Shown: piece after piece, positions 291 to 62,348 of the stretch
Numbering within the stretch: position 1 is the first letter of the stretch
How the letters are laid out: every line of letters starts with the position of its first letter
Origin: Halococcus salsus
Lineage (GTDB): Archaea > Halobacteriota > Halobacteria > Halobacteriales > Halococcaceae
Direction: 5' to 3'
Length of the DNA: 64,000 bases
Assembly (NCBI RefSeq): GCF_009900715.1
Contig: NZ_JAAAJC010000009.1
Span: 1-64,000, forward strand
Notes under the pieces: generated by a model
What the model was told of the DNA's origin: nothing
Seen by the model: only the letters and a program-made list of their open reading frames with translations
Databases searched by the model: none
Program-made: the position numbers and the translations under genes

Positions 291-337
291 TCTTACCAAA
301 CAATAGAACACGAGTATCCGTGAAGTCTTAGGTAAGA
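291..337. repeat. TCTTACCAAACA inverted-repeat element, copy 1
   Basis: A 12-base arm TCTTACCAAACA at 291-302 faces a near-complementary arm at 326-337, with a 23-base spacer. Outside bases extend the pairing to GTGTCTTACC / GGTAAGACAC. Five more elements with the same arms and 21-23 base spacers occur in the window. Confidence 0.6.
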
Positions 338-6767: not shown

Positions 6768-6840
6768 ATTTCAGACGTATCTCTTGTAGTCAGTAGATAA
6801 ATGCAACTTTATCTAGGAAATATTTATATTATTTGTATTC

Positions 6841-6853
6841 AAATATTGTATCG
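6841..6853 (+). promoter_or_regulatory. Probable TATA region of the small peptide gene
   Basis: AAATATTGTATCG lies about 55-65 bases before the start codon. The copy-2 gene has AAATATTATATTGG at the same place, and the following block (GCGAAAATRGCAATCGTCGT) is conserved too. The peptide may thus have its own promoter besides read-through from dppB. Confidence 0.45.
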
Positions 6854-6906
6854 GCGAGATTGCTTGGTAGCGAAAATAGCAATCGTCGTCCCGTAAAGTC
6901 AGTACC

Positions 6907-30472: not shown

Positions 30473-31752
30473 TATGAGAGGATGTTGTTGTTGATTAGCC
30501 GTTCGGCCGATTTCATCGCGCTGTCCGCGGAGTTGTCTCCACTGACCGCCCCCTCAACCTCCGAGAGAACGGTATCGATGATGCGTCCGGTGTTGAGACC
30601 GAACTGGAGCGGGTATCCGCCCTCGGTCAAGTTCGCAATATTCCCGAGCAGCGGTTGTTTGTTGTAGAAGTTGCGCTCCAACAGTGATTGCCGGGAAGGG
30701 AGTGCAGTCCCAGTCTTTGCCCATGCCCACATGCCCTGCTGGTTCGTCAACGCCTTCACGAGACCAGCGGCTCCTTTTTTGTCGGTTGGCGTCGCGGATG
30801 GGGCCCACGCCGTTGTCAACAGCAATGTGGCTCGCTCGCCACCGGGCGGTTTCGGCATTCGCTTCACCATTTGGAGTGACTTCGTTGTTTCGGGGTATTC
30901 CTCTTGAAGTGCCGAAACGAACCACGCACCACCCATCGCCGCTGTAGTGTGGTTTTCGCCCAGTGCTGGAGCGCCCCAGTCGACAGGAATCTCGGCACTG
31001 TACATCCCCGCGAGGCCATCATCGTAGAGGTCCATGAGGAACTGGAGGGCCTCAATGGCCTCTGTAGAACCGATCACACATTCTGTTCCATCTTCGTTGA
31101 GAACGGCGCCGCCGTTCTGCCAGACAAGAGGGAGGAACGTCTCGCGTGGTTCGCTGTTGAATGCCAGTGGGTACTCAATCTCCGTCTTCCGTTTGACATC
31201 CTCAAGTGCTGTCCGAAAGTCGTCCCATGTATCGAAAGTTGTCTTCGTGCCCGCTTTCTGGAGATGGGCCTCGTTGTAGTAGATCCCAACTGGTGTATAG
31301 TCCTTCGGAATACCGTATGTTTTCCCCTGGTGCTGAAAGGCTGAAATTAGGTTGTCAATGAGGCCGTCTACATTGTACGCCGCGTTCTGGATATACGGAG
31401 TCATATCCAGTAGTGCCTCATTCTCCATGTACTGGGGCGCTTCCTCAGCACTGAGGTAGAATACATCCGGTTCAGTGCCACCGGCGTACTCCGTTTTCAA
31501 TTGCTGGTCGAAACCGCTTGGGATATTTTGATAGACGACGTTGACTTCCGGATGAGCCTGATCGTACTCACTGAGGATCCGAGTAACGATCTCATCCTCG
31601 GTCCCTGTTGCCCAGCTCGACGCAGAGATGGTGGGGGTGGTTGATGCCGATTGGCTCAGTACATTCGTTGAACAGCCAGTGAGGGCCGTTGCCATCCCAA
31701 TACCACCTGTCGCAACGAACTTTCGCCGAGTGAGCGAGTGATTCTGATTCAT
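30472..31752 (-). CDS. Sugar-binding lipoprotein of ABC importer
   Basis: A 426-residue binding protein with a twin-arginine signal (LTRRKFVATGG) and lipobox ALTGC, then a type-1 solute-binding fold (YGIPKDYTPVGIYYN, GGAWFVSALQEEYP). First gene of the operon, preceded by the TrmB-like regulator on the same strand. Substrate inferred from neighbours (ThuA, Gfo/Idh, GH4): a disaccharide or glycoside such as trehalose. Confidence 0.85.
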   Translation of the reverse strand: MNQNHSLTRRKFVATGGIGMATALTGCSTNVLSQSASTTPTISASSWATGTEDEIVTRILSEYDQAHPEVNVVYQNIPSGFDQQLKTEYAGGTEPDVFYLSAEEAPQYMENEALLDMTPYIQNAAYNVDGLIDNLISAFQHQGKTYGIPKDYTPVGIYYNEAHLQKAGTKTTFDTWDDFRTALEDVKRKTEIEYPLAFNSEPRETFLPLVWQNGGAVLNEDGTECVIGSTEAIEALQFLMDLYDDGLAGMYSAEIPVDWGAPALGENHTTAAMGGAWFVSALQEEYPETTKSLQMVKRMPKPPGGERATLLLTTAWAPSATPTDKKGAAGLVKALTNQQGMWAWAKTGTALPSRQSLLERNFYNKQPLLGNIANLTEGGYPLQFGLNTGRIIDTVLSEVEGAVSGDNSADSAMKSAERLINNNILS

Positions 31753-33891: not shown

Positions 33892-34868
33892 CAGCGCTCC
33901 CCGAGAGATACTGGAGCGTCGGTCGCTATCGACTCGTTGACCGCGAGAGTAAGGCCGAATGTCCGCTCGGCGTCGGCATACGGTGAGCGCGGACGGTTGG
34001 CATCATCCAAGCTGACCGCCTCAAAGAAGTCACTTACTTCGGAACGAAAGGCCTCGTCGAGAGATTTTCCATCATAGCTAACATCTTCACCATCGACGGT
34101 ACCCCTGAGGCGTCTCTCGGTCAGATCAACATCAAGCAGGAAGTCATCGCCAGCAAGTTCGAGTCCGACGCTCTCCTCGGAGGCAACTGATGACGAGAGA
34201 ACTTGGCTAACCGCCCCATTCGTGTGATACATCGATGCTGTCGTCGTGTCTGGAAAATCGAGTTCGTCAGTGTTGACTTCCTGGCCCCCATAGGCGGTGA
34301 CTCGTTCGACTTCGCCGGCGAAATACCGCACAAGGTCGAAGATATGTGTCGATTGTTCGACGACCTGTCCACCAGACTGTTCGGCAACGCTCCACCACCC
34401 CGTACTGGGAACTCCACCGATCCAGTGGCCGGAAACAAATGAGACGGTTCGATCTTCGATGAGGTCCTTCGCCTGCTCAATCACGTCGGCGTAGCGGTTC
34501 ATGTACCCGACTTGGGTTACAAGACCAGCGTTGTCGGCAGCATCACCGATCGCTCGGGCAGTGTCGATATCGAGGCCAAGCGGTTTCTCAACAAAGAGGT
34601 TGATATCATGGTCAATGACAGTGTGTTCCGGTGGTCCGTGTGCGAACGGCGGAACAGCCACGAGCACCGCATCGAGGTCGTGGCTCTCGCATAATGCCTC
34701 AGGGTCAGTGTAAGCCGCGGCGTCGAAACGCTCAGCTGCGTTCAACCGTGTCGATTCATCGATGTCGCAGATGCCGACGACCTCGGCATCATCCATGTGT
34801 TCGATATTCGGAAAGTGCTGCCAGGCAGTGACGCCCCCAGCTCCGATAAAGCCGATAGTCGTGGCCAT
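33891..34868 (-). CDS. Gfo/Idh/MocA family sugar dehydrogenase (a)
   Basis: From MATTIGFIGAGG (34868) the protein has 325 residues: an NAD(P)-binding Rossmann fold (GAGGVTAWQHFPN) and the EKPLGLD motif with the catalytic-region lysine, then a beta-sheet domain. Members oxidise sugar hydroxyls, including to 3-keto glycosides. It is divergent from dehydrogenase (b), sharing a 113-bp control region. Confidence 0.82.
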   Translation of the reverse strand: MATTIGFIGAGGVTAWQHFPNIEHMDDAEVVGICDIDESTRLNAAERFDAAAYTDPEALCESHDLDAVLVAVPPFAHGPPEHTVIDHDINLFVEKPLGLDIDTARAIGDAADNAGLVTQVGYMNRYADVIEQAKDLIEDRTVSFVSGHWIGGVPSTGWWSVAEQSGGQVVEQSTHIFDLVRYFAGEVERVTAYGGQEVNTDELDFPDTTTASMYHTNGAVSQVLSSSVASEESVGLELAGDDFLLDVDLTERRLRGTVDGEDVSYDGKSLDEAFRSEVSDFFEAVSLDDANRPRSPYADAERTFGLTLAVNESIATDAPVSLGER

Positions 34869-39994: not shown

Positions 39995-40041
39995 TCTTAC
40001 CTAACATTGGAGCGATGTGCTCGATTAAATGTTTGGTAAGA
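39995..40041. repeat. TCTTACC inverted-repeat element, copy 2
   Basis: TCTTACCTAACA (39995-40006) and TGTTTGGTAAGA (40030-40041), 23-base spacer. Orientation is opposite to most copies: the TTAGG-type arm comes first. Confidence 0.6.
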
Positions 40042-40820: not shown

Positions 40821-41297
40821 ATGAGCGGTTCACCTTCCTACGGGATCCCTTTAGAGGAGCTAACTGGTGATGTCGGCGCTCCCGATGTGGCGGATATGCA
40901 AGCAATACGGGACCTATTTCTTCGTGATGACCCCCTCATCGAGGAAGCTGTCTTCGACTCAGTTCTTGCTCCCCGCGAGCTTCATATCCGGTTCGCCGAT
41001 GGTATCGGAGAGGCAAGCTGGTCCCGATTAGACGTCACTTGGTACACGACCGATGCGTACCGATTTCATTACGTGGACGAAGCCGATGTCAACTGGCGTT
41101 TCGACCGACATCCGAACGACCATTCGCCCGAAAAGCACTTTCACGAGCCCCCAGCGGCAGCGTCCAAAACAGCCCGCCAGTCGTGCATCACGGTCGAAGA
41201 ACCCCGACTCGTCGCTCGGGCAGTGCTGAACCTCTGGCGTCGTGCATACGAGACCGATTCGGTAGCTGAGCTGAACAACGCACGAAATCCACCATAA
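40821..41297 (+). CDS. TumE/DUF6516-like putative toxin
   Basis: A 158-residue protein. The core WYTTDAYRFHYVDEADVNWR and FDRHPNDHSPEKHFHEPP resembles TumE-type (DUF6516) proteins, which have a YxxHY...D...HH-rich core and pair with HTH antitoxins (TumA). The match is by pattern only. It directly follows the wHTH gene and the spacing implies one operon. Confidence 0.5.
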   Translation: MSGSPSYGIPLEELTGDVGAPDVADMQAIRDLFLRDDPLIEEAVFDSVLAPRELHIRFADGIGEASWSRLDVTWYTTDAYRFHYVDEADVNWRFDRHPNDHSPEKHFHEPPAAASKTARQSCITVEEPRLVARAVLNLWRRAYETDSVAELNNARNPP

Positions 41298-41397: not shown

Positions 41398-42666
41398 TCA
41401 CAAGAGATGGCAGGTTGCTGAATGGCCGGTCGTCATCTCCTGGTTCTCAGGCGACTCCCGTTCACAGACCGTCGAGAACTCCTCTGTGAATCGTTCTTCG
41501 GCGGTCGCGATGTTCTGCTCAGCGACGTCCGTAAGTACCGCAGCGACCGCTCGTTCCGCATCCGCGTCGTCCAGTTCGCTCGGGATATCGTAGCCCTCTC
41601 GAATCGCCGCTCGGAGCTTGGGGTCTGAGACTGCTGTGGTACTCGTTGCGCTCCCCTCGGAAACGAGTCGCTTCCGAATCGCCTTAGCGTCGAGCGTCCG
41701 GTCGCGGATCGCGACTCCGAAGTCGAGGAGATTCCGCCAGACTGATTGGTCGAGATCGTACTCGGCAGGCTGGATCACCGCAGGACACCTCGTGTGGAAC
41801 CGACATCCGGTAGGTGGATCGGCAGGATCCGGAACTTCGCCCGCCAAGTGCGCATGGTCCCCACGGGTGGTGAGGTCGGGTGTCGGAACCGATGCGAGGA
41901 GCGCTTTCGTGTAGGGATGCATAGGCTCGGCGAATACCTCGGCGGTGGGGCCGTTCTCTACGATCTCGCCTAGGTACATCACTGCTACTCGATCGCAGAC
42001 GTCGCGCACGACGTTCATATCGTGAGTTATAAGAAGAATCGAGAGGCCGAGCGTCGATTGGAGGTCGGCTATCAACTCCAGTACCGCGGATTGCACGCTC
42101 ACATCAAGCGCACTCACAGGCTCGTCCGCGACCAGCAGGTCGGGATTCAGGATCAGCGCCCGTGCGAGCGCAGCGCGTTGTTTCTCTCCACCCGAGAGTT
42201 CGTAGGGATAGCGGTCGTAATCGTCGACCGAGAGTCCAACCCGTTCGAGCAAAGCCTTCGATCGGTTGCGGCGGCGGTCGTGGTCCCGCAGTCCATGGAT
42301 CGCTGCGGGTTCGGCCACCGCTTCGCCGATCGTCATTCGAGGATCGAGGCTCGACGTCGGATCTTGAAAGATCATGCCCGCCCGTTGTCGAAACCGCTTC
42401 CGTGCTGCATCCCCCTGATCACCGATGGGGTCGCCATCGAAGACTACCCGACCGGAGGTCGGTTCCTCGAGGTGAAGCAGCGTCCGTGCAGCGGTGGATT
42501 TTCCACATCCTGACTCTCCAACGAGACCGAGTGTTTCCCCTCGTCGAAGGTCGAAATCGACGCCGTCGACCGCACGGACTCGTCCCGTCTCGCGGTCGAG
42601 CAGTCCCTCGGTTATCGGATAGTGTTTTTCGAGGCCACGGACCGAAAGCAGTGGATCGTCACTCAT
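41398..42666 (-). CDS. OppF/DppF-like ATPase (copy 2)
   Basis: A 422-residue homologue of the protein at 1974-3260, with Walker [10 protein letters not shown], signature LSGGEKQR, Walker [18 protein letters not shown] and the same roughly 110-residue C-terminal extension (QSVWRNLLDFGVAIRD to GHSATCHLL). Conservation of the extension in both copies shows it is part of the protein. Overlaps oppD by four bases. Confidence 0.87.
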   Translation of the reverse strand: MSDDPLLSVRGLEKHYPITEGLLDRETGRVRAVDGVDFDLRRGETLGLVGESGCGKSTAARTLLHLEEPTSGRVVFDGDPIGDQGDAARKRFRQRAGMIFQDPTSSLDPRMTIGEAVAEPAAIHGLRDHDRRRNRSKALLERVGLSVDDYDRYPYELSGGEKQRAALARALILNPDLLVADEPVSALDVSVQSAVLELIADLQSTLGLSILLITHDMNVVRDVCDRVAVMYLGEIVENGPTAEVFAEPMHPYTKALLASVPTPDLTTRGDHAHLAGEVPDPADPPTGCRFHTRCPAVIQPAEYDLDQSVWRNLLDFGVAIRDRTLDAKAIRKRLVSEGSATSTTAVSDPKLRAAIREGYDIPSELDDADAERAVAAVLTDVAEQNIATAEERFTEEFSTVCERESPENQEMTTGHSATCHLL

Positions 42667-43763
42667 CGTGCGCCACCGCCTTTCTGCCTATCGTTCGAAT
42701 TTCGTCCGTCATCAGTCCGAGTCGGCCCCGAGCGGTTACCGGTTCGTCCGTCGCCCGCTCGTTCGTCGTCGGTTCGGATCGCCGAGGCGTCACGACCCTC
42801 TTCGTAGAAGACACACGCAGCGGTGTGGGATTCGGTCTCCGTCGGCCGAAGTCGGGGGTGAGTTCCCTCACGACACTCCGTGATCGCGTGAGGGCATCGA
42901 GCGTGGAACCGACAGCCAGCCGGCGGTTCGGTTGGGCTCGGGAGGTCGCCCTCGATGGTTTCGCGTCGCTCACCGCGGCCCGGAAGACACCGAAAGAGAG
43001 CTCGAGTGTATGGATGGGCTGGCGACTCGAACACGTCTTCGACGCTCCCGCGTTCCATCACCTTTCCAGCGTAGAGTACCACGACACGGTCGGCCATCTC
43101 CGCAACGACTCCGAGATCGTGTGTCACGAAGAGGACCGCCATGTCGTGTTCGGCCTGAAGATCGTTCAAGAGATCGAGGATCCCTGCCTGTGTCGTCACG
43201 TCGAGTGCCGTGGTCGGTTCGTCGGCGACCAATAGGTCGGGTTCGGCGGCGAGCGCCATCGCGATGACGATCCGTTGTTTCATTCCACCAGAAAACTCGT
43301 GCGGATATTCCGCGATTCGGGTCGCAGCGTTCGGGATCCCGACTCTATCGAGCAGTTCGACGGCACGCTCGCGAGCAACCCCTTTTGAAACATCACGGTG
43401 GAGCCGAATGGACTCTCTGAGCTGTGCCTCGATCGAATAGACCGGATCGAGCGCTCCCTGAGGATTCTGAAACACATGTGCGATCCGTCCACCACGGATA
43501 TCGGTGAGCCGCGCTGGTGAGCGCGCCGTGAGGTCCATCCCATCGAACTCGATCCGACCGTCGACGAGCTCTCCCGGTGGACTCGAGAACAGTTTGGTGA
43601 GCGACTCGCAGGCGATGGTCTTTCCCGACCCAGATTCTCCGACGAGACAAACTGTTTCACCACGATGAACGGCAAAACTCACGCCATCGACCGCTCTGAC
43701 CGTGCCGGCCGAAGTGTGAAAGTGTGTTCTAAGATCCTCGACCGAGAGCAGTGGGTCACTCAT
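42663..43763 (-). CDS. OppD/DppD-like ATPase (copy 2, intact)
   Basis: A 366-residue ATPase with Walker A GESGSGKTIA (residues about 42-51), signature SGGMKQR, Walker B LLVADEP and CRFHARCPHA. It has the loop that copy 1 lacks, so this cassette should be ATP-competent. The C-terminal 40 residues are a low-complexity Arg/Asp/Gly tail. Four-base overlaps with both neighbours indicate translational coupling. Confidence 0.87.
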   Translation of the reverse strand: MSDPLLSVEDLRTHFHTSAGTVRAVDGVSFAVHRGETVCLVGESGSGKTIACESLTKLFSSPPGELVDGRIEFDGMDLTARSPARLTDIRGGRIAHVFQNPQGALDPVYSIEAQLRESIRLHRDVSKGVARERAVELLDRVGIPNAATRIAEYPHEFSGGMKQRIVIAMALAAEPDLLVADEPTTALDVTTQAGILDLLNDLQAEHDMAVLFVTHDLGVVAEMADRVVVLYAGKVMERGSVEDVFESPAHPYTRALFRCLPGRGERRETIEGDLPSPTEPPAGCRFHARCPHAITECREGTHPRLRPTETESHTAACVFYEEGRDASAIRTDDERAGDGRTGNRSGPTRTDDGRNSNDRQKGGGAR

Positions 43764-44959
43764 GCGCTCGACCTCGGATCAAGCGTGTCCCGGAGTGCAT
43801 CACCCACGACGCTGAACGAGAACACCGTGACGACGAGGAAGACAAGTGGGAAAACCCAAACCCACCACAGCTCCACGTTCACGCCACCCGTTTCGGTCGT
43901 AACGCTGTTGATGAACTGACCCCACGATGGGACGTTCTCGTCGCCTAGTACGACGATAAAGGAGATCGCTGCCTCAGTGAGAATTAACAGTGGGATTTGT
44001 CGGGTCGTGGCCGTGAACACGGTCGACGAGACGTTGGGAAGGATGTGTTTGCGGATGACCGTCGTACGGTTCGCGCCCGCGCTCTCAGCGGCGGTGACGT
44101 AGAGTTCACCGCGCCGCTGGATCACTTCACTACGGACGAGGCGGGCGACACCGCCCCAACTCAGTAGACCGAAGGCGAGGATGATGAGAAAGAGGCTTTG
44201 CCCAAAGACGAATCCAAGGATGATGTACGCTACAAAAGCGGGGACTGTCTGCTGAACATCCACATACCCCATCAAGACTGTGTCGACCCATCCACCCGAG
44301 TACCCCGCAACAACGCCCACGACCGTTGCAATAGGAACCATTATCATAGACGTTACGAGAGCGACGAGGAGGCTCACTCCGAACCCCGCGATCGTTAGAC
44401 TGAGGACACTCTGGCCGACGTCATTGGTACCGAACGGAAATCGGAGGCTGCCGTGGCAGAGCTGTTGGACGGCAGGGCCAGTTACGTGACCAGCGCAGTT
44501 GAGCGCGACCGTTCCGGACTCGATAGTGGCGAATAGCGCAGGCTGATTCGCGTACTCGATATTGGTACTCGGACGACCGAGAACGAGCAGGCTCAGGATT
44601 CCAAGAATGAAGAACAGAACGAGATAGGCGGCACAAACCACAGCAAGGCGATTTTTTCGGAAGCGTTGCCAGTACCGCCGGGTTCGTTCGTAGTCCGTGA
44701 ACAACGGAACGACGACGACGAAGACGAATACCACCAACGAGAGTAAGAAAAGCCAGTCAAGGCGCGCTGGCGTATACCATGCACCGACCGCAAGTCGATA
44801 GCTCGTGAAATAGTCGTAGCAAAACAGTGCGCCGATCGCGAAGAGTGCCAGCAGAAGTCCCCACGTCCTCCATTCGAGGCTGAGTCGACCATCATCGAGT
44901 TCCGCCCAGTCGATCGGTTCGAGCGCAGGGTCGGAACCCAGACCGGTATCCGTTGACAT
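43760..44959 (-). CDS. DppC/OppC-like permease (copy 2)
   Basis: A 399-residue protein almost identical in protein sequence to copy 1, including the two outer-loop cysteines (ALNCAGH and QQLCHGS). Nucleotide differences are mainly at third positions, evidence of selection on both copies after separation. First gene of the minus-strand operon. Confidence 0.87.
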   Translation of the reverse strand: MSTDTGLGSDPALEPIDWAELDDGRLSLEWRTWGLLLALFAIGALFCYDYFTSYRLAVGAWYTPARLDWLFLLSLVVFVFVVVVPLFTDYERTRRYWQRFRKNRLAVVCAAYLVLFFILGILSLLVLGRPSTNIEYANQPALFATIESGTVALNCAGHVTGPAVQQLCHGSLRFPFGTNDVGQSVLSLTIAGFGVSLLVALVTSMIMVPIATVVGVVAGYSGGWVDTVLMGYVDVQQTVPAFVAYIILGFVFGQSLFLIILAFGLLSWGGVARLVRSEVIQRRGELYVTAAESAGANRTTVIRKHILPNVSSTVFTATTRQIPLLILTEAAISFIVVLGDENVPSWGQFINSVTTETGGVNVELWWVWVFPLVFLVVTVFSFSVVGDALRDTLDPRSSA

Positions 44960-45194
44960 CGATGACTGTGATCGATGGACGAGGATGGAAAATAAGTGTT
45001 TCCCGCCCGGGAGTTGAGCGAGAAATCAAGCGGGTCAACGTTTATTGTATCGTGGTTTCACATGGGTACTATACCCGGATGTTCAGCTCACGGCGATCTG
45101 TGACCATCGATATAGAGATCGAATCCCGTCCAATGAGCCTCAGTTCCGACTTGAAGAGCGAGCATCGACGACATGATTTGTTGGGTATCTCTGT
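44960..45194. promoter_or_regulatory. Divergent promoter region between dppC and dppB (copy 2)
   Basis: 235 bases, alignable with 5503-5738. TTTATTGTATCG around 45040-45051 matches the proposed TATA block of copy 1. Confidence 0.45.
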
Positions 45195-46220
45195 ATGAGT
45201 CGAGGATGGTGGGTCGCTCGGCGAGTGGTCTTTGCAGTATTCGCGGCGTATCTCGTGCTGTCGACGGTGTTCGTGTTCGTCGCTCTTACCCCAGACCCTC
45301 GTGTCGGTGAGCTTACCTACGCCGCGACCTCTCAGGCAAACAACCAGCGTATTCCCGTCGAACAGACGGATGCGTGGGAGCAGCTACAGACGTACAAAGC
45401 CGAACGCGGCCTCAACGAACCGTTCCTCGAACGCTACGAGAACGTGCTGGTCTCGTATACGACGTTCGACTGGGGAGAGTCATACGGAGCGGACGGACAG
45501 ACGACGTTCGGCGGATCGTATGGGTCGGGATACGCGGCAAACGTTCCAGTCATCGGGCTGGTTGGAAACGCACTCGGTCATACTCTTCGGTACGTGCTAC
45601 CGGCAGTTCTCTTTGCAGTGGTCTGTGGTCTCGGAGCGGGTCTCTACTCGGCGACCCACCAAGGAAGCTTGCTCGACAGGCTGGGAACGAGTGTCGCTTA
45701 CCTTGGCTTCAGCTTCCCGAATTTCTGGCTTGGAACCATTGCTCTCGTCCTCGTCGGTACCGGTGGTTGGTTGGGAATTCGGAATGGGAGTGAGTTCCTC
45801 CGTACGACGGCACTTCCCGCTGCAGTGCTCGGCACCACGCTATTCGCGGGCCAGCTTCGATACACTCGGGCGCAATCACTCGAATATATCGATGCCGAAT
45901 TCATCAAACTCGTACGGGCGAAAGGAGCAACGAACGGGCGTGTTGGACGTCATCTCCTCCGTAACGCAGCGATCCCACTCTTGTCGTTGTTTTTCGCCGA
46001 TATGCTCGGACTCCTCGTGCTGAACATATTCGTCATTGAGTACGTCTTCGGAATTCCAGGGATAGGGTCACTAGGACTTGTTGCGGTTCAGGGTCGTGAC
46101 CTGCCTGTGGTCCTTGGCACAACGATGGTGATCGTTCTTTTCGGGGTTGCAGGCAATCTGCTACAGGACGTTGCCCATCGGGTGTTCGACCCACGGATCG
46201 AAGCGGCGAGCAGCGAGTGA
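45195..46220 (+). CDS. DppB/OppB-like permease (copy 2)
   Basis: A 341-residue permease, homologue of 5739-6767, with the same outside segment (FDWGESYGADGQTTF) and transport domain. Compared with copy 1 it uses more G/C at third positions. Followed after 142 bases by the second small peptide gene. Confidence 0.87.
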   Translation: MSRGWWVARRVVFAVFAAYLVLSTVFVFVALTPDPRVGELTYAATSQANNQRIPVEQTDAWEQLQTYKAERGLNEPFLERYENVLVSYTTFDWGESYGADGQTTFGGSYGSGYAANVPVIGLVGNALGHTLRYVLPAVLFAVVCGLGAGLYSATHQGSLLDRLGTSVAYLGFSFPNFWLGTIALVLVGTGGWLGIRNGSEFLRTTALPAAVLGTTLFAGQLRYTRAQSLEYIDAEFIKLVRAKGATNGRVGRHLLRNAAIPLLSLFFADMLGLLVLNIFVIEYVFGIPGIGSLGLVAVQGRDLPVVLGTTMVIVLFGVAGNLLQDVAHRVFDPRIEAASSE

Positions 46221-46296
46221 GTCGCTCGCAAAGGTGTCTCTTCCTGTCAGGTTCTTATATACTCCAAAATTTGGAAATATTTACTAGAGTGTGTCG

Positions 46297-46310
46297 AAAT
46301 ATTATATTGG
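46297..46310 (+). promoter_or_regulatory. Probable TATA region of the second small peptide gene
   Basis: AAATATTATATTGG about 55-65 bases before the start codon, matching the copy-1 position; the downstream GCGAAAATGGCAATCGTCGT block is shared too. Confidence 0.45.
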
Positions 46311-46362
46311 CGAGATTGCTTGACAGCGAAAATGGCAATCGTCGTCTCGCAGAGTCAGTCCC

Positions 46363-46587
46363 ATGAGAAAGCTAACTCGCGCTGTCCTCGTTGTAATGGT
46401 CGTTTTCTCGGCCGTCGCAATGATGGGGGCAGCAAGTGCGTCAGCGACTAGTACCACTACGAGTGGACCCAGCGTAGGAGATCCCAGTTCCTCCAGTGGA
46501 TCAGGTACGACTGGTCTTCCAAGACCCCAACCAGACTGTTACACCAACGCTGACGGAACAGTGTGCGTACCGCCACCGGGAACGTAG
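46363..46587 (+). CDS. Small secreted two-cysteine peptide (copy 2)
   Basis: A 74-residue homologue of the protein at 6907. Signal peptide MRKLTRAVLVVMVVFSAVAM then GAASA, a Ser/Thr/Gly/Pro linker, and C-terminal PDCYTNADGTVCVPPPGT. The C-terminal block is the most conserved part after the signal, which argues that it is the active portion. Ten residues separate the two cysteines, enough for a disulfide loop. No lipobox or anchor is seen, so it should be released. Function unknown. Confidence 0.7.
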   Translation: MRKLTRAVLVVMVVFSAVAMMGAASASATSTTTSGPSVGDPSSSSGSGTTGLPRPQPDCYTNADGTVCVPPPGT

Positions 46588-47387: not shown

Positions 47388-47728
47388 GCGTCGATTCCGC
47401 TCCAGCGGCCGAACAGTCCATCACGGGCTGGAGTCTTGGCATCCGCGGCACCGCTCTCTGCCAGTACTGCACGAAAGAACTCGGCGAGGGCGACGAAGTG
47501 ACTGCCTACGCTTATCGCCCCGTCGAAGACCAACTGGTCTCGGTCGCGCGACTGTACTGCAGTGAGTGCAATCACCGAGAGATCGAGCACCCCGCCTTAG
47601 GATGCTATGAGTGGCTCGCCAAAGCCCGCCTCGCAACCACATCCGACGTCGCTTACCAATCACACGAGACGACCCTCACTGGAATCGAGATCATCGACCA
47701 ATCCGGCCCACAAGGGGATACGCTATGA
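47384..47728 (+). CDS. Haloarchaeal zinc-binding hypothetical protein
   Basis: From MSVDSAPAAEQSITGW, 114 residues with CQYCTKELGEGDEV and YCSECNHREI, a four-cysteine site separated by about 30 residues. The first part of the longer frame is rejected because the ATGA overlap marks the start. Found in mobile haloarchaeal regions in my memory of the family, but unnamed. Middle gene of the operon. Confidence 0.65.
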   Translation: MSVDSAPAAEQSITGWSLGIRGTALCQYCTKELGEGDEVTAYAYRPVEDQLVSVARLYCSECNHREIEHPALGCYEWLAKARLATTSDVAYQSHETTLTGIEIIDQSGPQGDTL

Positions 47729-48378
47729 GCGAGAGCACCCCACGGAAAGACCCTCACACACAAACCACCGAACACGCAGAGAGCGACAAACAACGAACAG
47801 ACTCGACCAGCGACACGAGTGTCTCAGTTCCAAGCGAGAGCGAGGACGACCCCTGGTTCATGGAAGAAGAAGTCAGGGACATCGTCAGAGAGGAAGTGAG
47901 CAAGCTCATCGAGGTTCGCGGCGTCGACCCGGAAGACGCCACTCTCGATGACGTCTGGATCGCCGGCCAGCCCCTCGGCAAGATCATCGAAGGCCTCACG
48001 AAGAAAGTCAAAGACACCAACTCCGCCAACGAACCGGCGGAGAGCGAATCCGATTCCAAGCGCACCCCCTTGGAGCGGATCGCCGACGAAGACGACACCA
48101 ATCCTGTCGGCGTCCAAATCACCTCCTCGGTGGACCGTGCCGCAGCCATCATGCGCAACTGGACGCAGTGGTCGAAGAAAGGTCCGAAAGGCCGGAACAT
48201 TCGCGATGGACTGAAGCCACTCATCGAAACCGAACTCGACGAAGACGACCTCGCTTGGAACCAGGTCTACCGAGCCTGCAAGAAGGTCGAGCACCTCACT
48301 AACGGAAAGATCGTCTTCACCAAACACACCAGACATGGCTGGATGCTCTTACAGCCGTCGTCAGCAGAGGGGGCGTAA
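47725..48378 (+). CDS. Haloarchaeal mobile-region hypothetical protein
   Basis: From MSESTPRKDPHTQTTEHAES, 217 residues. An acidic, Ser/Thr-rich N terminus leads to a helical region (EEEVRDIVREEVSKLIEVRG) and a C-terminal domain (WSKKGPKGRNIRDGLKPLIE to KHTRHGWMLLQPSS) resembling a small winged-helix unit. Third gene of the ATGA-coupled operon. A decayed copy of its 3' end lies at about 51225-51290, so the gene was once duplicated nearby. Confidence 0.6.
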   Translation: MSESTPRKDPHTQTTEHAESDKQRTDSTSDTSVSVPSESEDDPWFMEEEVRDIVREEVSKLIEVRGVDPEDATLDDVWIAGQPLGKIIEGLTKKVKDTNSANEPAESESDSKRTPLERIADEDDTNPVGVQITSSVDRAAAIMRNWTQWSKKGPKGRNIRDGLKPLIETELDEDDLAWNQVYRACKKVEHLTNGKIVFTKHTRHGWMLLQPSSAEGA

Positions 48379-48690
48379 GTCCTCCTCCAAATAGCGAGTC
48401 GAACCACCACAAACTAACGACGGTCCAACACGACCCTCTCGTTCCACGCCCGCACCACACCGCAAGCAACCCACCGCTACCGTGTGGTGCGTCAAGTGCT
48501 GCGTCGGTGCTGCTAGTATGAGGAGACAGGGTGGGAGAATCGCCGTCCGACAACGAGTGTAAGTGACCCTCTCTGCTCCGAAGTATCGATTCTTCTCTTG
48601 GAACCACTCGCTAGTCAGTAGTAATCCCCGAACCGTCTTACCAAACATCGAATCGGCATCGCCATTCCAATGTTAGGTAAGAATTGTACC
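48365..48690. repeat. Noncoding repeat family, copy A
   Basis: From the 3' end of the preceding gene through a CACACCGCAAGCAACCCACC block, an ACAACGAGTGTAAGTGACCC block and the TCTTACC inverted repeat. Similar stretches occur at about 49858-50100, 50960-51090 and 51225-51480. The family seems to have spread as a unit and then decayed. Confidence 0.6.
48637..48683. repeat. TCTTACC inverted-repeat element, copy 3
   Basis: TCTTACCAAACA (48637-48648) and TGTTAGGTAAGA (48672-48683), 23-base spacer. It ends copy A of the noncoding repeat. Confidence 0.6.
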
Positions 48691-48827
48691 GTCGGCAGAC
48701 GATTCGAGCCAGCGAGTAATTGACGAGTATCGATTGCTCTCTGGAAGAAAACTGAATCGTATTACGGAAGATACCGAGTGATCCGTAGTCTTTACTCACT
48801 TGGCGACGGTCTGATTACAGAGAGCGG

Positions 48828-48902
48828 GCCGAAGTAGCTCAGCTTGGCCAGAGCAGCTCCCTTGTAAGGAGCTTGCCGGGGGTTCGAATCCCCCCTTCGG
48901 CT
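48828..48902 (+). tRNA. tRNA-Thr(UGU), right copy, intact
   Basis: All arms pair: acceptor GCCGAAG/CTTCGGC, D GCTC/GAGC, anticodon GCTCC/GGAGC with loop CTTGTAA (anticodon UGU), T GGGGG/CCCCC with TTCGAAT. No encoded CCA. The left copy at 37527 is the degenerate partner. Confidence 0.92.
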
Positions 48903-48940
48903 TTTCTAACTCCGAGTGGCAAAGGAATACGCAGTATCGC

Positions 48941-49324
48941 CTAAGAACGACCTTGACCGTGGTTAGAAGTCGAACGATTCCAAAGACGAGTCCAGAGATC
49001 GAGTTGCAATGCCGTCGCTTGTAAACCAGCAGAGGCGGCTAATTGCGGAAACGTAGTTCCCGACACCGCCGGAATAGGGACGTCTTGTCCAAAGTTGGCG
49101 TTAGATGGGGAATTCCCTCGAACCGCGAGGTGAGTCCCACAGATGGGACAAGCAAGGGCAATTCGATCCTCTCTGTCTGTTTGCTTCCTTACCCAGTCAT
49201 CTTCCGCAGGCGCTTCGCGCCCGCACTCGGGACAGATGAGAACCGACTTTCGGTGCTGCGAGGGGCCCCCTTCGGCCTCAGCGCAGCCAGAACCGCTATC
49301 GGGGTGCGGGTTGGTCTGGTTCAC
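48941..49324 (-). CDS. Zinc-ribbon hypothetical protein
   Basis: A 127-residue protein. Its middle (VLICPECGREAPAEDDWVRK, then ALACPICGTHLAVRG) holds two CxxC knuckles separated by about 28 residues, a pattern common in small haloarchaeal proteins. The C-terminal part lacks recognisable motifs. It ends close to the right tRNA-Thr on the opposite strand. Confidence 0.6.
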   Translation of the reverse strand: MNQTNPHPDSGSGCAEAEGGPSQHRKSVLICPECGREAPAEDDWVRKQTDREDRIALACPICGTHLAVRGNSPSNANFGQDVPIPAVSGTTFPQLAASAGLQATALQLDLWTRLWNRSTSNHGQGRS

Positions 49325-49498
49325 AACGCGCGCTAGTACCTGTCTTCTTGTAAGCTTGGTGGCAATTCGTGTGGTTGATGATGTGAGTGTTCCTCTCCGG
49401 TGTTGTTCGGCTGTTTTTAACGCTTGAGATTGGTATTCGCGACTAATTCGCTAAGCGAGCGGAACTTGCATGTGTTTCCCCAGCGGTCTCGTCCCAAA

Positions 49499-49850
49499 AT
49501 GGATGATGCTGCCGACCCGTTCGCCGCACTCAACCCCGAGAACTACTACAATGAATACGGTAATGAAGAGCGGAAACGATTGCAAGCAACGCGAAAAGCG
49601 CAATTCGAATTCGAGAACACTATAGAATACCTTAGAGAGCATCTTCCAGATCGAGGTCACGTACTCGATGCTGGAGGCGGGGCAGGTCGGTACACAGTCT
49701 GGCTCGCAGAACAGGACTATGAGGTAACACTGGTTGATCTAAGCGACGAGCAGTGCCGAATTGCCCGAGAGAAGGTTGAAGAACGAGGTCTTACGGAGCA
49801 GGCCACCAGTGAAGCGCCCGATTCAGCGGACATGTTTGATAAGACCCACT
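49499..49850 (+). pseudogene. Truncated SAM-dependent methyltransferase
   Basis: From MDDAADPFAALNPENYY the first 103 residues are a clear class-I methyltransferase N-terminal half: motif I VLDAGGGAGRYTVWLA and post-I VTLVDLSDEQ. At about 49805-49860 the family ends and the frame enters copy B of the noncoding repeat. The normal protein is about 250 residues, so the catalytic core is cut. A deletion or repeat insertion is the likely cause. Confidence 0.75.
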
Positions 49851-49857
49851 CGTTCCT

Positions 49858-50100
49858 TGCCCCCACCGCACCGCAAACAACCCGCCGCTTCCGTGTGGTG
49901 GGTCGAGTACTGTGTCGGTGCTGCTAGTGAGCAGGGATAAGGAGGGAGAATCGCCCTCCTACAACGAGTATAGGCGATTTCCTCCGGAGTTCGCCTCTTC
50001 TCTCAGAACCAATCACTGGTCGACGGTGACTCCCAAACGGTCTTACCAAACAACGAACTAAGATTCATTTCTGTGTTAGGTAAGAACCCCCCAGCGTCGG
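49858..50100. repeat. Noncoding repeat family, copy B
   Basis: CACCGCACCGCAAACAACCC through ACAACGAGTATAG to the TCTTACC inverted repeat, colinear with copy A. It replaces the 3' half of the methyltransferase gene. Confidence 0.6.
50041..50085. repeat. TCTTACC inverted-repeat element, copy 4
   Basis: TCTTACCAAACA (50041-50052) and TGTTAGGTAAGA (50074-50085), 21-base spacer. Confidence 0.6.
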
Positions 50101-50537
50101 CAGGCGATTCAAGCTACTGAGCAACCAACGAGTACCGCCTCTTCATCTGAGTTTGCGCTCAGTTCCAGTGGTTATCGCTGGATCACATGCCTAACGACCT
50201 GCACAAATCAGCCAAACAAAACTCGGATTTGACGCGAGTAACCACGGGGTTGCGCGGCGGACAAACGGTTTCGGGATCATACCCTCAAACAGCCGCTGTT
50301 CCCGTAATCTCCTTTGTCTCGCAGTCGGATGGCCGTAGTCTTGTCTGCATCCAGCGTAGAGGTCTCGTTGAGCCGAAGAATGGAGTTCTCGCCGAGTCAG
50401 CTTGCTCGGGATAGAGCAATCACCTGCAGCCTACTAGCTACTACCGTGGAGTGCGGCCTGCCCAGTCGTTCTACGAGGATACAATTGCTTGAACACTACT
50501 GACGAAATGGCAGTTTGGATAACGTCCCAGCGCTTCT
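50101..50537. other. Non-genic region
   Basis: Short frames here show no family pattern or consistent codon use. Nothing is supported. Confidence 0.3.
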
Positions 50538-50771
50538 TTAGAGCTCTCGGACTTTGATTTGGGTATCGTCAATCGAGTCTACGTGCTTGCTTTCTAGTTC
50601 CTGGATTGCGCTGTCATCCCATCCGAGACTGGAAGTGATCGCATCAATGACCTTCTCTTCGCCGCTCTTTTTGACGTACGCATTGCCGTCTCTGATATCA
50701 TCAACCGCACCAATCGTGTTCCCTTGCTGGTCAACTACTCGCTTTCCCTTGTCGCTTTCACTGAAATCCAT
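50538..50771 (-). CDS. PRC-barrel-like small protein
   Basis: From MDFSESDKGKRVVDQQGNTI the product has 77 residues and the PRC-barrel pattern (VVDQQGNTIGAVDDI, DGNAYVKKS) found in many small haloarchaeal proteins, followed by an acidic tail with ITSSLGWDD. The longer frame upstream is rejected as it runs through a noncoding repeat. Role unknown; PRC domains often mediate RNA or protein contacts. Confidence 0.65.
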   Translation of the reverse strand: MDFSESDKGKRVVDQQGNTIGAVDDIRDGNAYVKKSGEEKVIDAITSSLGWDDSAIQELESKHVDSIDDTQIKVREL

Positions 50772-50959
50772 CGCAACGAATATGCAGAGCCCAATCAAGT
50801 AGCTGCGCCTTGCGGAAGCCAGCGTACCACTGTTTGAAGAGTCCTCTATTGCAATATGGTCGAGTATAATATAGCCACCCAGTTCGTGAACCGATCGGTG
50901 TATATCGAGTGTTGTATTGATGCCATTAGTAGGCAAAGGCGCAGAAGAAAGAATCGCTA

Positions 50960-51090
50960 CTTTACAACGAATGGCAGTGGCCTTTCCCTTAGATTCGAAC
51001 TCTTCTTTCAAGCCTATAGCCAGTAGTGACTTCCGGGGTGTCTTACCAAACATTGAATCAGTAGCTCGTTCTAGTGTTAGGTAAGAATAG
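50960..51090. repeat. Noncoding repeat family, copy C (partial, diverged)
   Basis: GAATCGCTACTTTACAACGA to the inverted repeat aligns with copy B over its right-hand part only. Confidence 0.5.
51041..51086. repeat. TCTTACC inverted-repeat element, copy 5
   Basis: TCTTACCAAACA (51041-51052) and TGTTAGGTAAGA (51075-51086), 22-base spacer. Confidence 0.6.
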
Positions 51091-51224
51091 CTGCGCTCGT
51101 CGGGCGGTGGTATGAGTCGATGAGCATGCAGCGAGGATCTGTCGCGCTCTCTCAGAAAGGGGTCAATCACGTGGACAGCTGGGCTTCGTCGGATTGGCTG
51201 TCGGCTGAAACCGCAAGTCCGAGC

Positions 51225-51480
51225 GCCGACATTCCAAACACGGCTAGATGCTTTTGCAACCGTCGTTAGCACAGGGGGCGTAAGCCATCCTCGAAATAGC
51301 GAGACGAACCACCCAGACTAACGGCGGCCTAACGCGTCCAATTCGTTCCACATACCACCACACCGCAAGCAACCCACCGCTACCGTGTGGTACGTCCAGT
51401 GTCGCGAGTAAGTAGAGACGGGGAGGAAGAATCATTTTCCCACAACGAGTGTAAGTAACCCCCCTCTTCTCCGGAGTGCC
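51225..51480. repeat. Noncoding repeat family, copy D, with a gene 3'-end relic
   Basis: Starts with a frame-shifted likeness of the last 15 codons of the gene at 47725-48378, then follows copy A through CACACCGCAAGCAACCCACC and ACAACGAGTGTAAGTAACCC. It stops before the inverted repeat. Confidence 0.6.
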
Positions 51481-51794
51481 AGTTCTTTTTTGTACCTAAT
51501 TGAAATGCTTAGCAGCACGTTCAGTTTCATTATGACACATTTACAAGCAGGGTGTCAGTATCAATCATGTCCTTGAATTCTATAGGCAATGACTCAGGTT
51601 TGAATGGATAGCGTACTGAAGGCGGAGATCTCACCTCTCATCCGTATTTCCAGGCGTTGAGCGTAGTGATATCCGGTCAAGTGGATTTTGAACGGCAGTC
51701 GGTAGAAAAGATGGACCAATACCTCCTTGATAATCGGAGGAATTCGGCCATTCTCACCGGATTTGGCGAAGCCTTAACTGAGCAAACCGATGTC

Positions 51795-52232
51795 ATGTAT
51801 ATGACTACCCGAGTTGAGCGTACGTTCGATCTGGATGCTTCACCGGACCAGGTTTGGGAATTTATTACTGACCCAGAGAATCGCGCAGAACCGATTAGTG
51901 TCGTCGAATCCTTCGAAGTTCACGACGAAACTCACGCCACTTGGCATCTCTCGATACCAATTTCAGTGATTGATAGTACCATCACTGTAGAAACCGAGGA
52001 CACCAAACGTGATCCACCCTCTCATGTAGAGTTTGTTGGTCGGTCAGACGTCATGAGAATCATTGGTGAACACGACCTCGAAGAGCTTGAAGAAGGGACG
52101 CGGTTGAAGAATCGGTTCACTGTTGAAGGACAAATACCGGGCGTCGAGCAGTTTTTTGAAGCTAATTTTGACAGTGAGCTTGAGAACTTAGAAAGCGCTA
52201 TTCGTAGGAAGACTGAAATTTCCCCGAAGTGA
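51795..52232 (+). CDS. SRPBCC/polyketide cyclase-like protein
   Basis: From ATG 51795 or 51801 about 145 residues: TTRVERTFDLDASPDQVWEF begins a START-like helix-grip fold, with WHLSIPISVID in the sheet and a long C-terminal helix (EQFFEANFDSELENLESAIR). Such proteins bind hydrophobic ligands; the ligand is unknown. The longer frame from 51657 has no family support. It stands alone. Confidence 0.7.
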   Translation: MYMTTRVERTFDLDASPDQVWEFITDPENRAEPISVVESFEVHDETHATWHLSIPISVIDSTITVETEDTKRDPPSHVEFVGRSDVMRIIGEHDLEELEEGTRLKNRFTVEGQIPGVEQFFEANFDSELENLESAIRRKTEISPK

Positions 52233-52547
52233 TGTTTTTTAGTAAGTAATCGGGGCTGAATAGTCCCAAATATTATCTTCTCAATAATAGTTATAGTAAA
52301 TATTAACCTCGGTACAGACTAGGTTGAGGACCTGGAAGCGAGTCCACGGAATGTTTGCTCGCTCACTCGCCTCGGCAGCAATTCTCCTCTGGGTTGGCCC
52401 CATCCTCAGAGTTTTTCATCAATTGGCATCCATCCTTGAAGCTGGTAATTTGAATTCATCAAAGGAATGGTCGTACTCCACTCATTTATTCCGAGATAGA
52501 GAAGCAGTTGAGAAGATTAATTATCCTCTTCGATTCTCGGATTATAT
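52233..52547. other. AT-rich intergenic region
   Basis: 315 bases, clearly lower in GC than neighbours around 52260-52310; probable promoter of the following gene. A frame from 52324 is a shadow. Confidence 0.4.
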
Positions 52548-53213
52548 GTGTCCCATCCCCGTGAGAACGTCGAGATACCTTCGGAGGCTGTTACTGTCGT
52601 GCAGCGGTATCGCCGTGTTGAGCGACCAGTTAGTTGGGGAGTGTCTCTTCTCCTCGCTGCTGTCGTCACGATCGCTCTTTTCTCACTTTCTCTGATCCCA
52701 GTACTGCTTGTAGCGAGTGCAGTTCTCGCTCTCGCTCGATTTCCACTATTGAGGAGCCACGGAAGTATGAAACTAGAAACTGACGTGAGCGCTGAGACGG
52801 CACGAGCAAGATTCGGAGGTGCGGCCCCACGAGTGCTTGCCTTCCAGTGGGGACTCGCTAACGACATCCGTCCGACTTCGGAGGGGTGGGCCTACGATAT
52901 ATCGTATCTCTTCGGATTGGTCTCGATAACTATGGAAGTAAAAACGAGCTCGCCCCAGTCGGATGGTGAGAATGAAGCCCACGACGGCTTCGAGCTGACT
53001 GTCACAGCCAACGGGAAGGCATGGGGAACATACCTGGTGTCGATCGATGAACAGGGTCGAAAAACAGCGATAGAGATCAAGTACGAATCAGCCCGCAAGT
53101 TCGGTCTTCGCCGACTTCCACAGTGGTTGGTAGCTGAACGTTATCGACACGAAGCGTTAGCTGTGCAAGGATACACCATTGCCGAGCGGGACTTCAATCT
53201 GAGTATCAGATAA
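52548..53213 (+). CDS. Haloarchaeal membrane hypothetical protein
   Basis: GTG start gives MSHPRENVEIPSEAVTVVQR; 221 residues. Two adjacent hydrophobic helices (about residues 28-68) anchor the protein, followed by a soluble domain of about 150 residues (FQWGLANDIRPTSEGWAYDI) with no motif I can name. Convergent with the HNH gene. Confidence 0.6.
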   Translation: MSHPRENVEIPSEAVTVVQRYRRVERPVSWGVSLLLAAVVTIALFSLSLIPVLLVASAVLALARFPLLRSHGSMKLETDVSAETARARFGGAAPRVLAFQWGLANDIRPTSEGWAYDISYLFGLVSITMEVKTSSPQSDGENEAHDGFELTVTANGKAWGTYLVSIDEQGRKTAIEIKYESARKFGLRRLPQWLVAERYRHEALAVQGYTIAERDFNLSIR

Positions 53214-53237
53214 TGGCCCAGCTGTCGGGCATAGTCC

Positions 53238-53921
53238 TCAAAAGAGCCGTTTCAATCCGTACACAAGGAGTGCCCCGACTGCAGGAACGGCTGTGAAGAT
53301 CTCGATGAGAACGATGACTCGGGAAAATCCAATCTGGGGCATCACCATGGTGGCGAACAACGCGACACCGCCCATTGAAAGCACGGAGCCCAGAAGTACC
53401 TGTAGCGGCCGCCAGAGCATTGCTCCGAGAACAACTAAAAGAATCACCGCTGCAAGTCCTGCCCACCACGTTGGTGGAAACGGGAGCGCACTCCAGAGAG
53501 GCGCATCGGTCGGACTCACGAAGTTGAGAGCAACCAACACAGCGAAAAGATAGCTGAAGAGCCCAACAACTGTCGCGCCAACGAACTTGAGTGCCCGAAT
53601 CAAGCGACCACCAAGGCCGGTTCCACGGCCCGTATCACCAACCCAGCCGTCGCTCGCGAAGATATCGTGGTCGTGCACCTCATTGTGACAGGATTCACAG
53701 AGTGTAGTGAGATTCGAGAGCTGGTTCGACCCACCTTCGGAGCGCGGAACAACGTGATGGGCGTGGAGACGTGTCCCATCACCCCCCGCATATGGACCAC
53801 TCTGATGCCCACATCGGGTACACGTCCAGTCATCCCGCCTGTAGACCCTCTTTCGACGAATATCCCAATCGGGCGGAAGACCACCGCCATAGGAACTCGG
53901 GTCGTTCCATTGTGGGTCAAT
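53238..53921 (-). CDS. HNH endonuclease domain fused to a membrane region
   Basis: The frame holds an HNH nuclease domain (WTCTRCGHQSG, RLHAHHVVPRSEGGSNQLSN, LTTLCESCHNEVHDHD) with two zinc CxxC pairs, then at least four membrane helices (LFAVLVALNFV to LLVYGLKRLF). The fusion of HNH and membrane segments is unusual. The frame opens after a TAG at 53922-53924 with ATT as first codon and no ATG or GTG before the domain, so the N terminus may be truncated or start at a rare codon. A GTG at 53676-53678 would give only the membrane part. Confidence 0.65.
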   Translation of the reverse strand: MDPQWNDPSSYGGGLPPDWDIRRKRVYRRDDWTCTRCGHQSGPYAGGDGTRLHAHHVVPRSEGGSNQLSNLTTLCESCHNEVHDHDIFASDGWVGDTGRGTGLGGRLIRALKFVGATVVGLFSYLFAVLVALNFVSPTDAPLWSALPFPPTWWAGLAAVILLVVLGAMLWRPLQVLLGSVLSMGGVALFATMVMPQIGFSRVIVLIEIFTAVPAVGALLVYGLKRLF

Positions 53922-54094
53922 CTACTCTCCCCGCGACATGAATTGGCTCAGACAGCCTCTTGTGATGAATCTAACTGCTATCGGGAAGGAGCTCAATAGC
54001 CGTCATGAGTAAAGAGAGTTCACTTCTCAAGTCGGAACTTTCTCGGTAGGCGACCGCTCACCGCTTGGGCGAGTGCTCACCCGGTGGGTAGATA

Positions 54095-54339
54095 TGCGGC
54101 AACAATCGCACGTCGCAAGCGGACTTTTCGTGTGCGAAGTGCGGGTACGAGGTTCACGCCGATTACAATGCGGCGAAGAACATCGGTTTCAAACACGTCC
54201 ACGCGGGGCAAAGTCTCCGCGTGGACGGGCCACACATCAACTGGCCCTGAAGTCGGGGACGCTGAACGCGAGTGGTTCCTTTGAACCCGCCGAGAGTATT
54301 GGCCAGAGCGGGAGTCCACCGACAAGCGCCGGCCTTTAG
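54095..54339 (+). pseudogene. TnpB (IS200/IS605) C-terminal remnant
   Basis: TSQADFSCAKCGYEVHADYN then AAKNIGF is the zinc-finger and final RuvC part of TnpB, which includes the last catalytic Asp (HADYN). A frameshift near 54237 moves the tail (QLALKSGTLNASGSFEPAES) into another frame ending at a TAG. The N-terminal four fifths and any TnpA are missing. Confidence 0.8.
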
Positions 54340-54344
54340 GCCGG
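54329..54344 (+). repeat. IS200/IS605 right-end hairpin
   Basis: CCGGCCTTTAGGCCGG, followed by GGAAGTTGAC, is the subterminal hairpin typical of right ends of haloarchaeal IS200/IS605 elements and the 3' part of the TnpB guide RNA. It directly overlaps the end of the remnant. Confidence 0.65.
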
Positions 54345-54464
54345 GGAAGTTGACAGGTTTTCTTCGAGGTTTAACCCTTTTTGGGAGCCATTCCCACATT
54401 CGAGAGCGACTGGTTCGACCGTTCAGGCTGGTTTTCAGTGAGTAGGTTCACGACGGTTGGATTC

Positions 54465-54510
54465 TCTTACCAAACACCAGAACGTAATTCGGATCTAATG
54501 TTTGGTAAGA
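54465..54510. repeat. TCTTACC inverted-repeat element, copy 6
   Basis: TCTTACCAAACA (54465-54476) and TGTTTGGTAAGA (54499-54510), perfectly complementary here, 22-base spacer. Confidence 0.65.
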
Positions 54511-61457: not shown

Positions 61458-62348
61458 ATGTTGGGATACTCCGTATACTCGGAAGCGGGGGGAGTGGCAA
61501 AGACAACAACAGCCGCGAACTGCGCGGTCGCTCATGCTCGGCACGGGCTTGACGTTTTGATGATTGATCTGGATCCACAGAACGCCAGTCTCTCCTACCT
61601 ATTCGATGTAGATCAGGACCGGGCTGAAGGGGATGCAGACAATTTGGTTCGTCACCTTATTGGCCGACCCCGAGGAAAGCTGACCGACCTTATTCGTGAG
61701 ACTGACGAAGGGGTGGATGTCCTACCGACCCATAACATGCATGAGAAGCTAACAGAGCTTCTCTTGAAAACCGCTGAAATCGAAGAGCAAACCCATGGAG
61801 ACACGAACTACGAATTTCAGAAACACTCACAGCTTCTCACAGTGCTACAGGAGGCGGGAATCAACGAACAGTACGATGTACTCGTAATTGATCCCCCAGC
61901 AAATGGAGAGCAAGCACAGAACAATGCTCTATTCGCAACTCGAAACGTCGTCATTCCTGTAGAACTATCCGGGAAAGGGGAGCAATCTGTTCGTGGACTA
62001 GAGGAAGTTGTTGAAGGGCTTGAGGCAACGCTCGAAGTGAATATCGGCGTTCTAGCTCTTCTACCGTTCAAATACGAAGGGACGAACGACCAGAAGCATT
62101 ATCTCGATGAACTAGAAGAAACTGGATTCGACATGCCAGTTATAGTCGGTAAGCGTTCATCGCTGATGGAGGGGTGCTGGCGGGAGCAATGTAGCGCATT
62201 TCGCTATATCGACGAATACCGCGATCGGCGACGAGACCACGAAGTGAAGACGCTTGAACAGTACGACGAGTTAGCTCGTCATATCGAGCGTGAAGGCGGT
62301 ATTCAGCTCGAAGACACCAGCCAGAACGAAATTGAGGTGGAATTATGA
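61458..62348 (+). CDS. parA: ParA/Soj-family partition ATPase
   Basis: A 296-residue ParA with deviant Walker A GGVAKTTTAAN (residues about 11-21), switch DLDPQNASLSYLF, and Walker B VLVIDPPANGEQA. Its small size without an N-terminal HTH suggests plasmid type Ib or chromosomal-like Soj. The next gene starts four bases before its stop. It should move plasmid copies apart together with its partner on the iterons. Confidence 0.88.
   Translation: MLGYSVYSEAGGVAKTTTAANCAVAHARHGLDVLMIDLDPQNASLSYLFDVDQDRAEGDADNLVRHLIGRPRGKLTDLIRETDEGVDVLPTHNMHEKLTELLLKTAEIEEQTHGDTNYEFQKHSQLLTVLQEAGINEQYDVLVIDPPANGEQAQNNALFATRNVVIPVELSGKGEQSVRGLEEVVEGLEATLEVNIGVLALLPFKYEGTNDQKHYLDELEETGFDMPVIVGKRSSLMEGCWREQCSAFRYIDEYRDRRRDHEVKTLEQYDELARHIEREGGIQLEDTSQNEIEVEL

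Follow-up and report, generated by a model that had tools for sequence, protein, structure and literature searches.

The 64,000-nucleotide stretch of Halococcus salsus DNA analysed here (the window) is part of contig C9 (64.6 kb) of the genome designated G000 and contains six two-arm palindromes, with a total length of 45–47 bp and spacers of 21–23 bp (Table 1). These palindromes were compared with related sites in other haloarchaeal genomes, plasmids and viruses and could be connected with the genes of a family of small proteins, DUF6788, one of which is encoded on contig C22 of the same genome. Five of the six copies are perfect and have the form TCTTACCWAACA-N21-23-TGTTWGGTAAGA. The copies listed in the original prediction, which had been made from the letters of the window, all exist with the spacers given there; the start placed at 48637 is in fact 48636, and the right arm of the copy at 291 is degenerate (TCTTAGGTAAGA, two mismatches). 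Single arms with no more than two mismatches occurred 17 times in the window against 3.0 expected, a number reached in none of 100 shuffles. In a scan with both half-sites, the six copies scored 42–51 bits and no hits of at least 14 bits were obtained in six Markov shuffles of 64 kb.

Position 8 of the half-site is W (A or T). Among 53 non-redundant sites, the two halves combined as AA in 26, AT in 24 and TT in 3 cases, and these counts fit the values of about 27, 21.5 and 4 that independent halves would give. The mismatch (CCA/AGG) previously described as kept between the arms corresponds to this position, which takes A or T independently in the two halves. A weak extra preference within the arm was noticed for T at positions 13–14, followed by A or G. 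Because position 8 varies independently in both halves, the palindrome looks like a pair of half-sites for a protein and not like the stem of an RNA.

A strict pattern detected nine copies in the whole genome, confined to C9, C18 and C22, and a relaxed pattern detected 19 copies on C3, C7, C8, C9, C11, C18, C22 and C27 (20 with the degenerate copy at 291), the reversed control of the relaxed pattern giving zero matches. With the six of the window included, the genome-wide search proposed together with the original prediction revealed about 20 copies spread over several low-GC contigs. All of them were located in DNA of ~50–56% GC, including low-GC islands within C3 and C7, whereas the sampled chromosomal DNA of C1–C5 and C7 had 66–68% GC, so the palindromes mark plasmid-like or acquired DNA. 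The flanks of 13 compared copies were unrelated and showed no target duplications, with the exception of a duplicated unit shared by the 48636 and 50041 copies. Two pairs of sites, G000:C8:31293 (L178)/G000:C11:47290 (L180) and G000:C7:112476 (L176)/G000:C18:4573 (L074), were found at equal or similar distances to genes that are homologous within each pair (86% and 95% identity), meaning that gene and site travel together.

The comparison sample comprised 392 genomes of the order, 32 of which contained the palindrome, and a contig scan of genomes gave named relatives in many haloarchaeal genera. Clustering of the proteins encoded next to the sites yielded two recurrent families, DUF6788-like (24 loci) and Orc1/Cdc6 (18 loci). 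DUF6788-like genes were present in 287 of the 392 genomes. All 24 top-scoring DUF6788 loci (at least 139 bits), including the one on C22, had a TCTTACC-type palindrome at the start codon, some with arm changes missed by the search pattern. In the usual layout, the right arm TGTTTGGTAAG is followed a few bases on by the ATG of the DUF6788 gene. The right arm ended 0–7 bp before the ATG in 50 of the 54 DUF6788 genes with a palindrome and 31–33 bp before it in two genes of the genus Halococcus; the gene of the H. salsus genome (G000:C22:2734-3114) has its palindrome ~32 bp upstream, with further C22 copies situated among three orc1-like genes. A palindrome accompanied 54 of 58 DUF6788 genes, compared with 28 of 1160 trials (2.4%) on shuffled upstream regions. 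Perfect TCTTACCTAACA palindromes were also seen on contigs labelled Archaeoglobaceae, WOR-3 and Bathyarchaeota (L028, L030, L034 and L041), and matches occurred on contigs labelled as bacteria other than WOR-3; L028 alone of these contigs encodes a nearby DUF6788-like protein, the site not being directly upstream of the gene.

The letters of the arms changed together with the protein. Lower-scoring DUF6788 loci had a palindrome alike in size and place with the arms CCTTATGTAACA, CCTTGTGCAACA, GACCTTATCAAAC, CTTAACCAAGG or TCTTACCAACA, and the second DUF6788 paralogue of the H. salsus genome, encoded on C8, is accompanied by its own palindrome (arm GTTACCCCACA), a palindrome that occurs a single time in this genome. 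For 40 non-redundant proteins (<90% identity), the distances between proteins and between operators were correlated (Mantel r = 0.549, 0 of 10,000 permutations); with shared ancestry included, this correlation is a sign of co-inheritance, short of proof of recognition. Of 16 genomes searched for the exact clade B palindrome, four contained it, and it was absent from the six genomes of clade A; several clade B and other plasmids or genomes held their own palindrome at additional, dispersed places. A shared host factor was rejected on account of the two paralogues (C22 and C8) with two different palindromes in one genome, and is likewise disfavoured because the clade B palindrome is missing from the six clade A genomes. 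The window copies are attributed to the C22-encoded protein as their putative ligand, because the arm letters agree and those of the only other DUF6788-like gene found, on C8, differ. One mark of an autoregulated operator, a site that co-varies with the protein and is placed where the gene of that protein begins, was found. The operator of a mobile-element regulator, one of the candidates put forward originally, gains support from the link of the palindrome to a plasmid or virus DUF6788 gene and its co-variation with the protein; the proposal of two protein half-sites in place of RNA pairing is supported by the independence of position 8 and by the palindrome changing with DUF6788.

DUF6788 homologues are also encoded by the haloarchaeal viruses phiCh1 (Nmag_4297; plasmid form pNMAG03) and phiH1 (PhiH1_250). 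Each virus has exactly four palindromes of the form ACCTTATCAAAC-N26-GTTTGATAAGGT in equivalent places, namely where the DUF6788 gene or its operon begins, 50–70 bp ahead of parA, 38–62 bp behind repH and in one intergenic gap. Between the two viruses the arms of these sites were conserved and the spacers had diverged. The phiH1 palindrome at 31630-31679 encloses a promoter, since the annotated T8 start (31672) and a TTTAATA sequence (31645-31651, 21–27 bp upstream) fall inside it, and the ATG of the operon is located at 31680. Searches of viral contigs with the clade B and phiCh1 proteins gave no further relatives. Other positions also recurred: eight loci had the palindrome 120–196 bp downstream of the stop codon of orc1, four had it ~98 bp before a plasmid TBP gene, and H. 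aerogenes had it in front of a histone-fold gene.

The DUF6788 proteins have ~110 residues, with a conserved N-terminal P-x-Y and G-x3-Q, a CG-x-x-C...HGPY-x-Y segment and a Y-x-G end, and the conserved Cys/His set suggests a possible zinc site. The H. aerogenes protein matched Pfam PF20586 with 34.8 bits (cut-off 27.2), and plasmid homologues carry the DUF6788 family annotation in their records. The C22 protein had no Pfam match and the PF20586 profile found nothing in the H. salsus genome, because the protein encoded there is divergent; it was recovered by a purpose-built DUF6788 alignment (E 1.5e-44). The predicted model consists of two helices and four strands (predicted local distance difference test, pLDDT, 83).

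Taken together, the DUF6788 proteins of haloarchaeal plasmids and viruses probably (at roughly 0.7) bind DNA and regulate their own genes, and the repeats of the window would be scattered sites for the protein from C22. Each palindrome would be bound by the small plasmid- or virus-encoded protein as a dimer (or higher oligomer). Where the palindrome is located at the beginning of the DUF6788 gene or operon, the protein would most likely keep out TBP/TFB and in this way repress its own production. The element carries further dispersed copies, located 3' of orc1 or repH, in front of parA, plasmid TBP, histone-fold or winged-helix genes, or in intergenic DNA; through these, the DUF6788 protein would tune maintenance genes by its concentration. 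Binding to the palindrome, repression and the maintenance role are what we infer from comparing sequences.

Several observations weigh against this interpretation. The window itself contains no DUF6788 gene, and its sites are either separated from plausible gene starts by 90–300 bp or not associated with a clear promoter, therefore some copies may be other than operators. Four of the 58 DUF6788 genes had no palindrome, two of them (L108 and L109) being DUF6788-like domains within open reading frames (ORFs) of ~400 amino acids with no palindrome upstream. The T8 transcript of phiH1 is annotated as constitutive. The structural model matched no known fold, with no PDB or BFVD match at E <0.001, so it is sequence comparison, and not fold, that argues for DNA binding.

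A serious, though unlikely, alternative is that the palindromes are centromere-like (parS-type) sites, bound by DUF6788 or a small ParA-side partner for segregation, with regulation being secondary. It has to be considered because several copies are off promoters and parA is often near. There are several sites per replicon, many of them away from promoters; one is ahead of parA in phiH1 and phiCh1, and ParA genes are found near DUF6788 in L027, L029, L037, L054, L069 and L070. However, the palindrome is tied to DUF6788 and not in every case to parA, the site closest to the DUF6788 gene is nearly always at its start codon, and sites also occur in the low-GC islands of the largely chromosomal contigs C3 and C7. 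As a ParB-type or ribbon-helix-helix centromere-binding protein, DUF6788 was recognised neither by Pfam nor by matching of the model to solved structures.

It is much less probable that the palindromes serve the neighbouring Orc1/Cdc6 as origin-recognition boxes (ORBs) or titration sites. Sites do flank orc1 in many plasmids, and oriC2 of Haloarcula hispanica is under negative control by a region rich in ORBs 3' of cdc6E (PMC3936714), but phiH1 and phiCh1, which carry no orc1 (PMC6471424) and replicate with RepH, have the same site architecture, and one palindrome is common to different orc1 types. Sites were not confined to orc1/cdc6 origins, and ORBs were rejected on this ground: several had no orc1 nearby and others lay beside repH, parA or TBP genes.

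Two further original proposals, that the palindromes act as core sites of a recombinase or form the termini of a small non-autonomous mobile element, are hardly credible. All copies in the H. salsus genome are in low-GC, apparently acquired DNA, and the 48636 and 50041 copies share a duplicated unit close to tRNA-Thr; however, beyond this unit neither shared flanks nor target duplications were seen, positions relative to DUF6788, TBP and orc1 genes are conserved across genera, and the phiH1 copy encloses a mapped promoter. For a tyrosine-recombinase site, consistent linkage to integrase genes was also lacking. The ends of a miniature inverted-repeat transposable element or insertion element were rejected as neither target duplications nor shared internal sequence occurred in the 13 copies, the 48636/50041 unit excepted. 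An RNA hairpin (terminator or riboregulator), to which an inverted repeat with a nearly constant spacer might point, is practically eliminated by mismatched A/T combinations at position 8 that are not depleted, by the location of the phiH1 palindrome mostly upstream of the transcription start and by arm letters identical in all contexts.

The surroundings of the sites in the window include duplicated DNA. The DUF7342 winged-helix gene is directly followed by a gene for a 158-amino-acid protein (40821-41297), and homologues of this pair are also found near palindromes in loci L057 and L076. The C27 homologue of the 217-amino-acid protein (65% over 113 amino acids) has a palindrome 184 bp 3' of its stop codon. 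The 48636 and 50041 sites belong to one diverged duplicated unit (74% over 303 bp). This non-coding unit is present in three diverged copies (48432-48740, 49843-50110 and 51229-51480), two of which hold a palindrome, and a methyltransferase-like ORF (49424-49927) ends within one of them and appears truncated. A stretch of ~5 kb with an ABC peptide-type transporter operon occurs twice (1999-7119 and 41405-46575, blocks 68–86% identical). Two tRNA-Thr(TGT) genes, 97% identical, are located on this low-GC contig (37526-37602 and 48827-48903), and a search of the assembly gave no third closely similar gene, so that mobile DNA may carry an essential tRNA.

Table 1. Palindromic sites and neighbouring genes in the window
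Feature	Position	Strand	Remarks
Palindromic site, degenerate right arm, TCTTACCAAACA-N23-TCTTAGGTAAGA	291..337	.	42 bits; no clear gene start within 200 bp
Palindromic site, 23-bp spacer	39995..40041	.	51 bits; 177 bp upstream of DUF7342 winged-helix gene
Palindromic site, 23-bp spacer	48636..48682	.	~258 bp 3' of 47725-48378 gene; 145 bp before tRNA-Thr
Palindromic site, 21-bp spacer	50041..50085	.	within diverged duplicate of 48432-48740 unit
Palindromic site, 22-bp spacer	51041..51086	.	270 bp upstream of in-frame ATG (50771) of minus-strand ORF 50538-51272
Palindromic site, fully symmetrical, 22-bp spacer	54465..54510	.	no clear gene start nearby
DUF7342 winged-helix regulator, 199 amino acids	40218..40817	+	Pfam PF24033, E 4e-39
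217-amino-acid protein without Pfam family	47725..48378	+	homologue on G000:C27
ParA-type ATPase (plasmid-like feature)	61458..62348	+	Pfam AAA_31/CbiA; no palindrome adjoining

No mention of the name DUF6788 was found in the literature searched, and the results give this orphan family a testable role. They point to an unrecognised layer of control for haloarchaeal plasmids, megaplasmids and lysogeny, and the natural changes of letters from clade to clade would allow the recognition code to be read by comparison.

Plasmid autoregulators with dispersed operators are a known principle, which would here be built on an uncharacterised protein family. The Omega repressor of pSM19035 is a small autoregulator with sites at its own, parA-like and copy-control promoters. 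Omega is a ribbon-helix-helix protein binding arrays of heptad repeats, whereas DUF6788 proteins give no ribbon-helix-helix match and have a single long palindrome at each location. KorB of RK2 uses multiple dispersed palindromic operators (OB) and in this respect resembles the proposed DUF6788 system. KorB belongs to the ParB family, in contrast to the ~110-residue DUF6788 proteins, which have no ParB match and sites of 45–52 bp with spacers of ~20–26 bp. The likeness would extend to a plasmid-encoded DNA-binding protein engaged in both transcriptional repression and partitioning, as described for KorB (with KorA) in PMC5577506. Tentatively, and with low probability, DUF6788 might have a novel DNA-binding fold and be the archaeal equivalent of KorB. 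One small protein reading long palindromes specific to its replicon would then regulate itself, control replication and parA genes and serve a centromere-like function, and the clade-specific arm letters would determine plasmid and virus compatibility. The repressors RepR (T6) of phiH1 and ORF48 of phiCh1 are encoded in the same L-region of the same viruses as the DUF6788 gene (PMC6210493). RepR is nevertheless a separate gene (34161-34430), PhiH1_250 and Nmag_4297 being annotated as uncharacterised or hypothetical, and the four DUF6788-type sites are not mentioned in the portions of the phiH1/phiCh1 repressor literature examined. The ORB elements behind cdc6E (oriC2D) of Haloarcula hispanica are similar as regulatory repeats directly 3' of orc1/cdc6 (PMC3936714); ORBs, however, bind Cdc6 and cluster, whereas the palindromes described here co-vary with DUF6788 and are also found behind repH.

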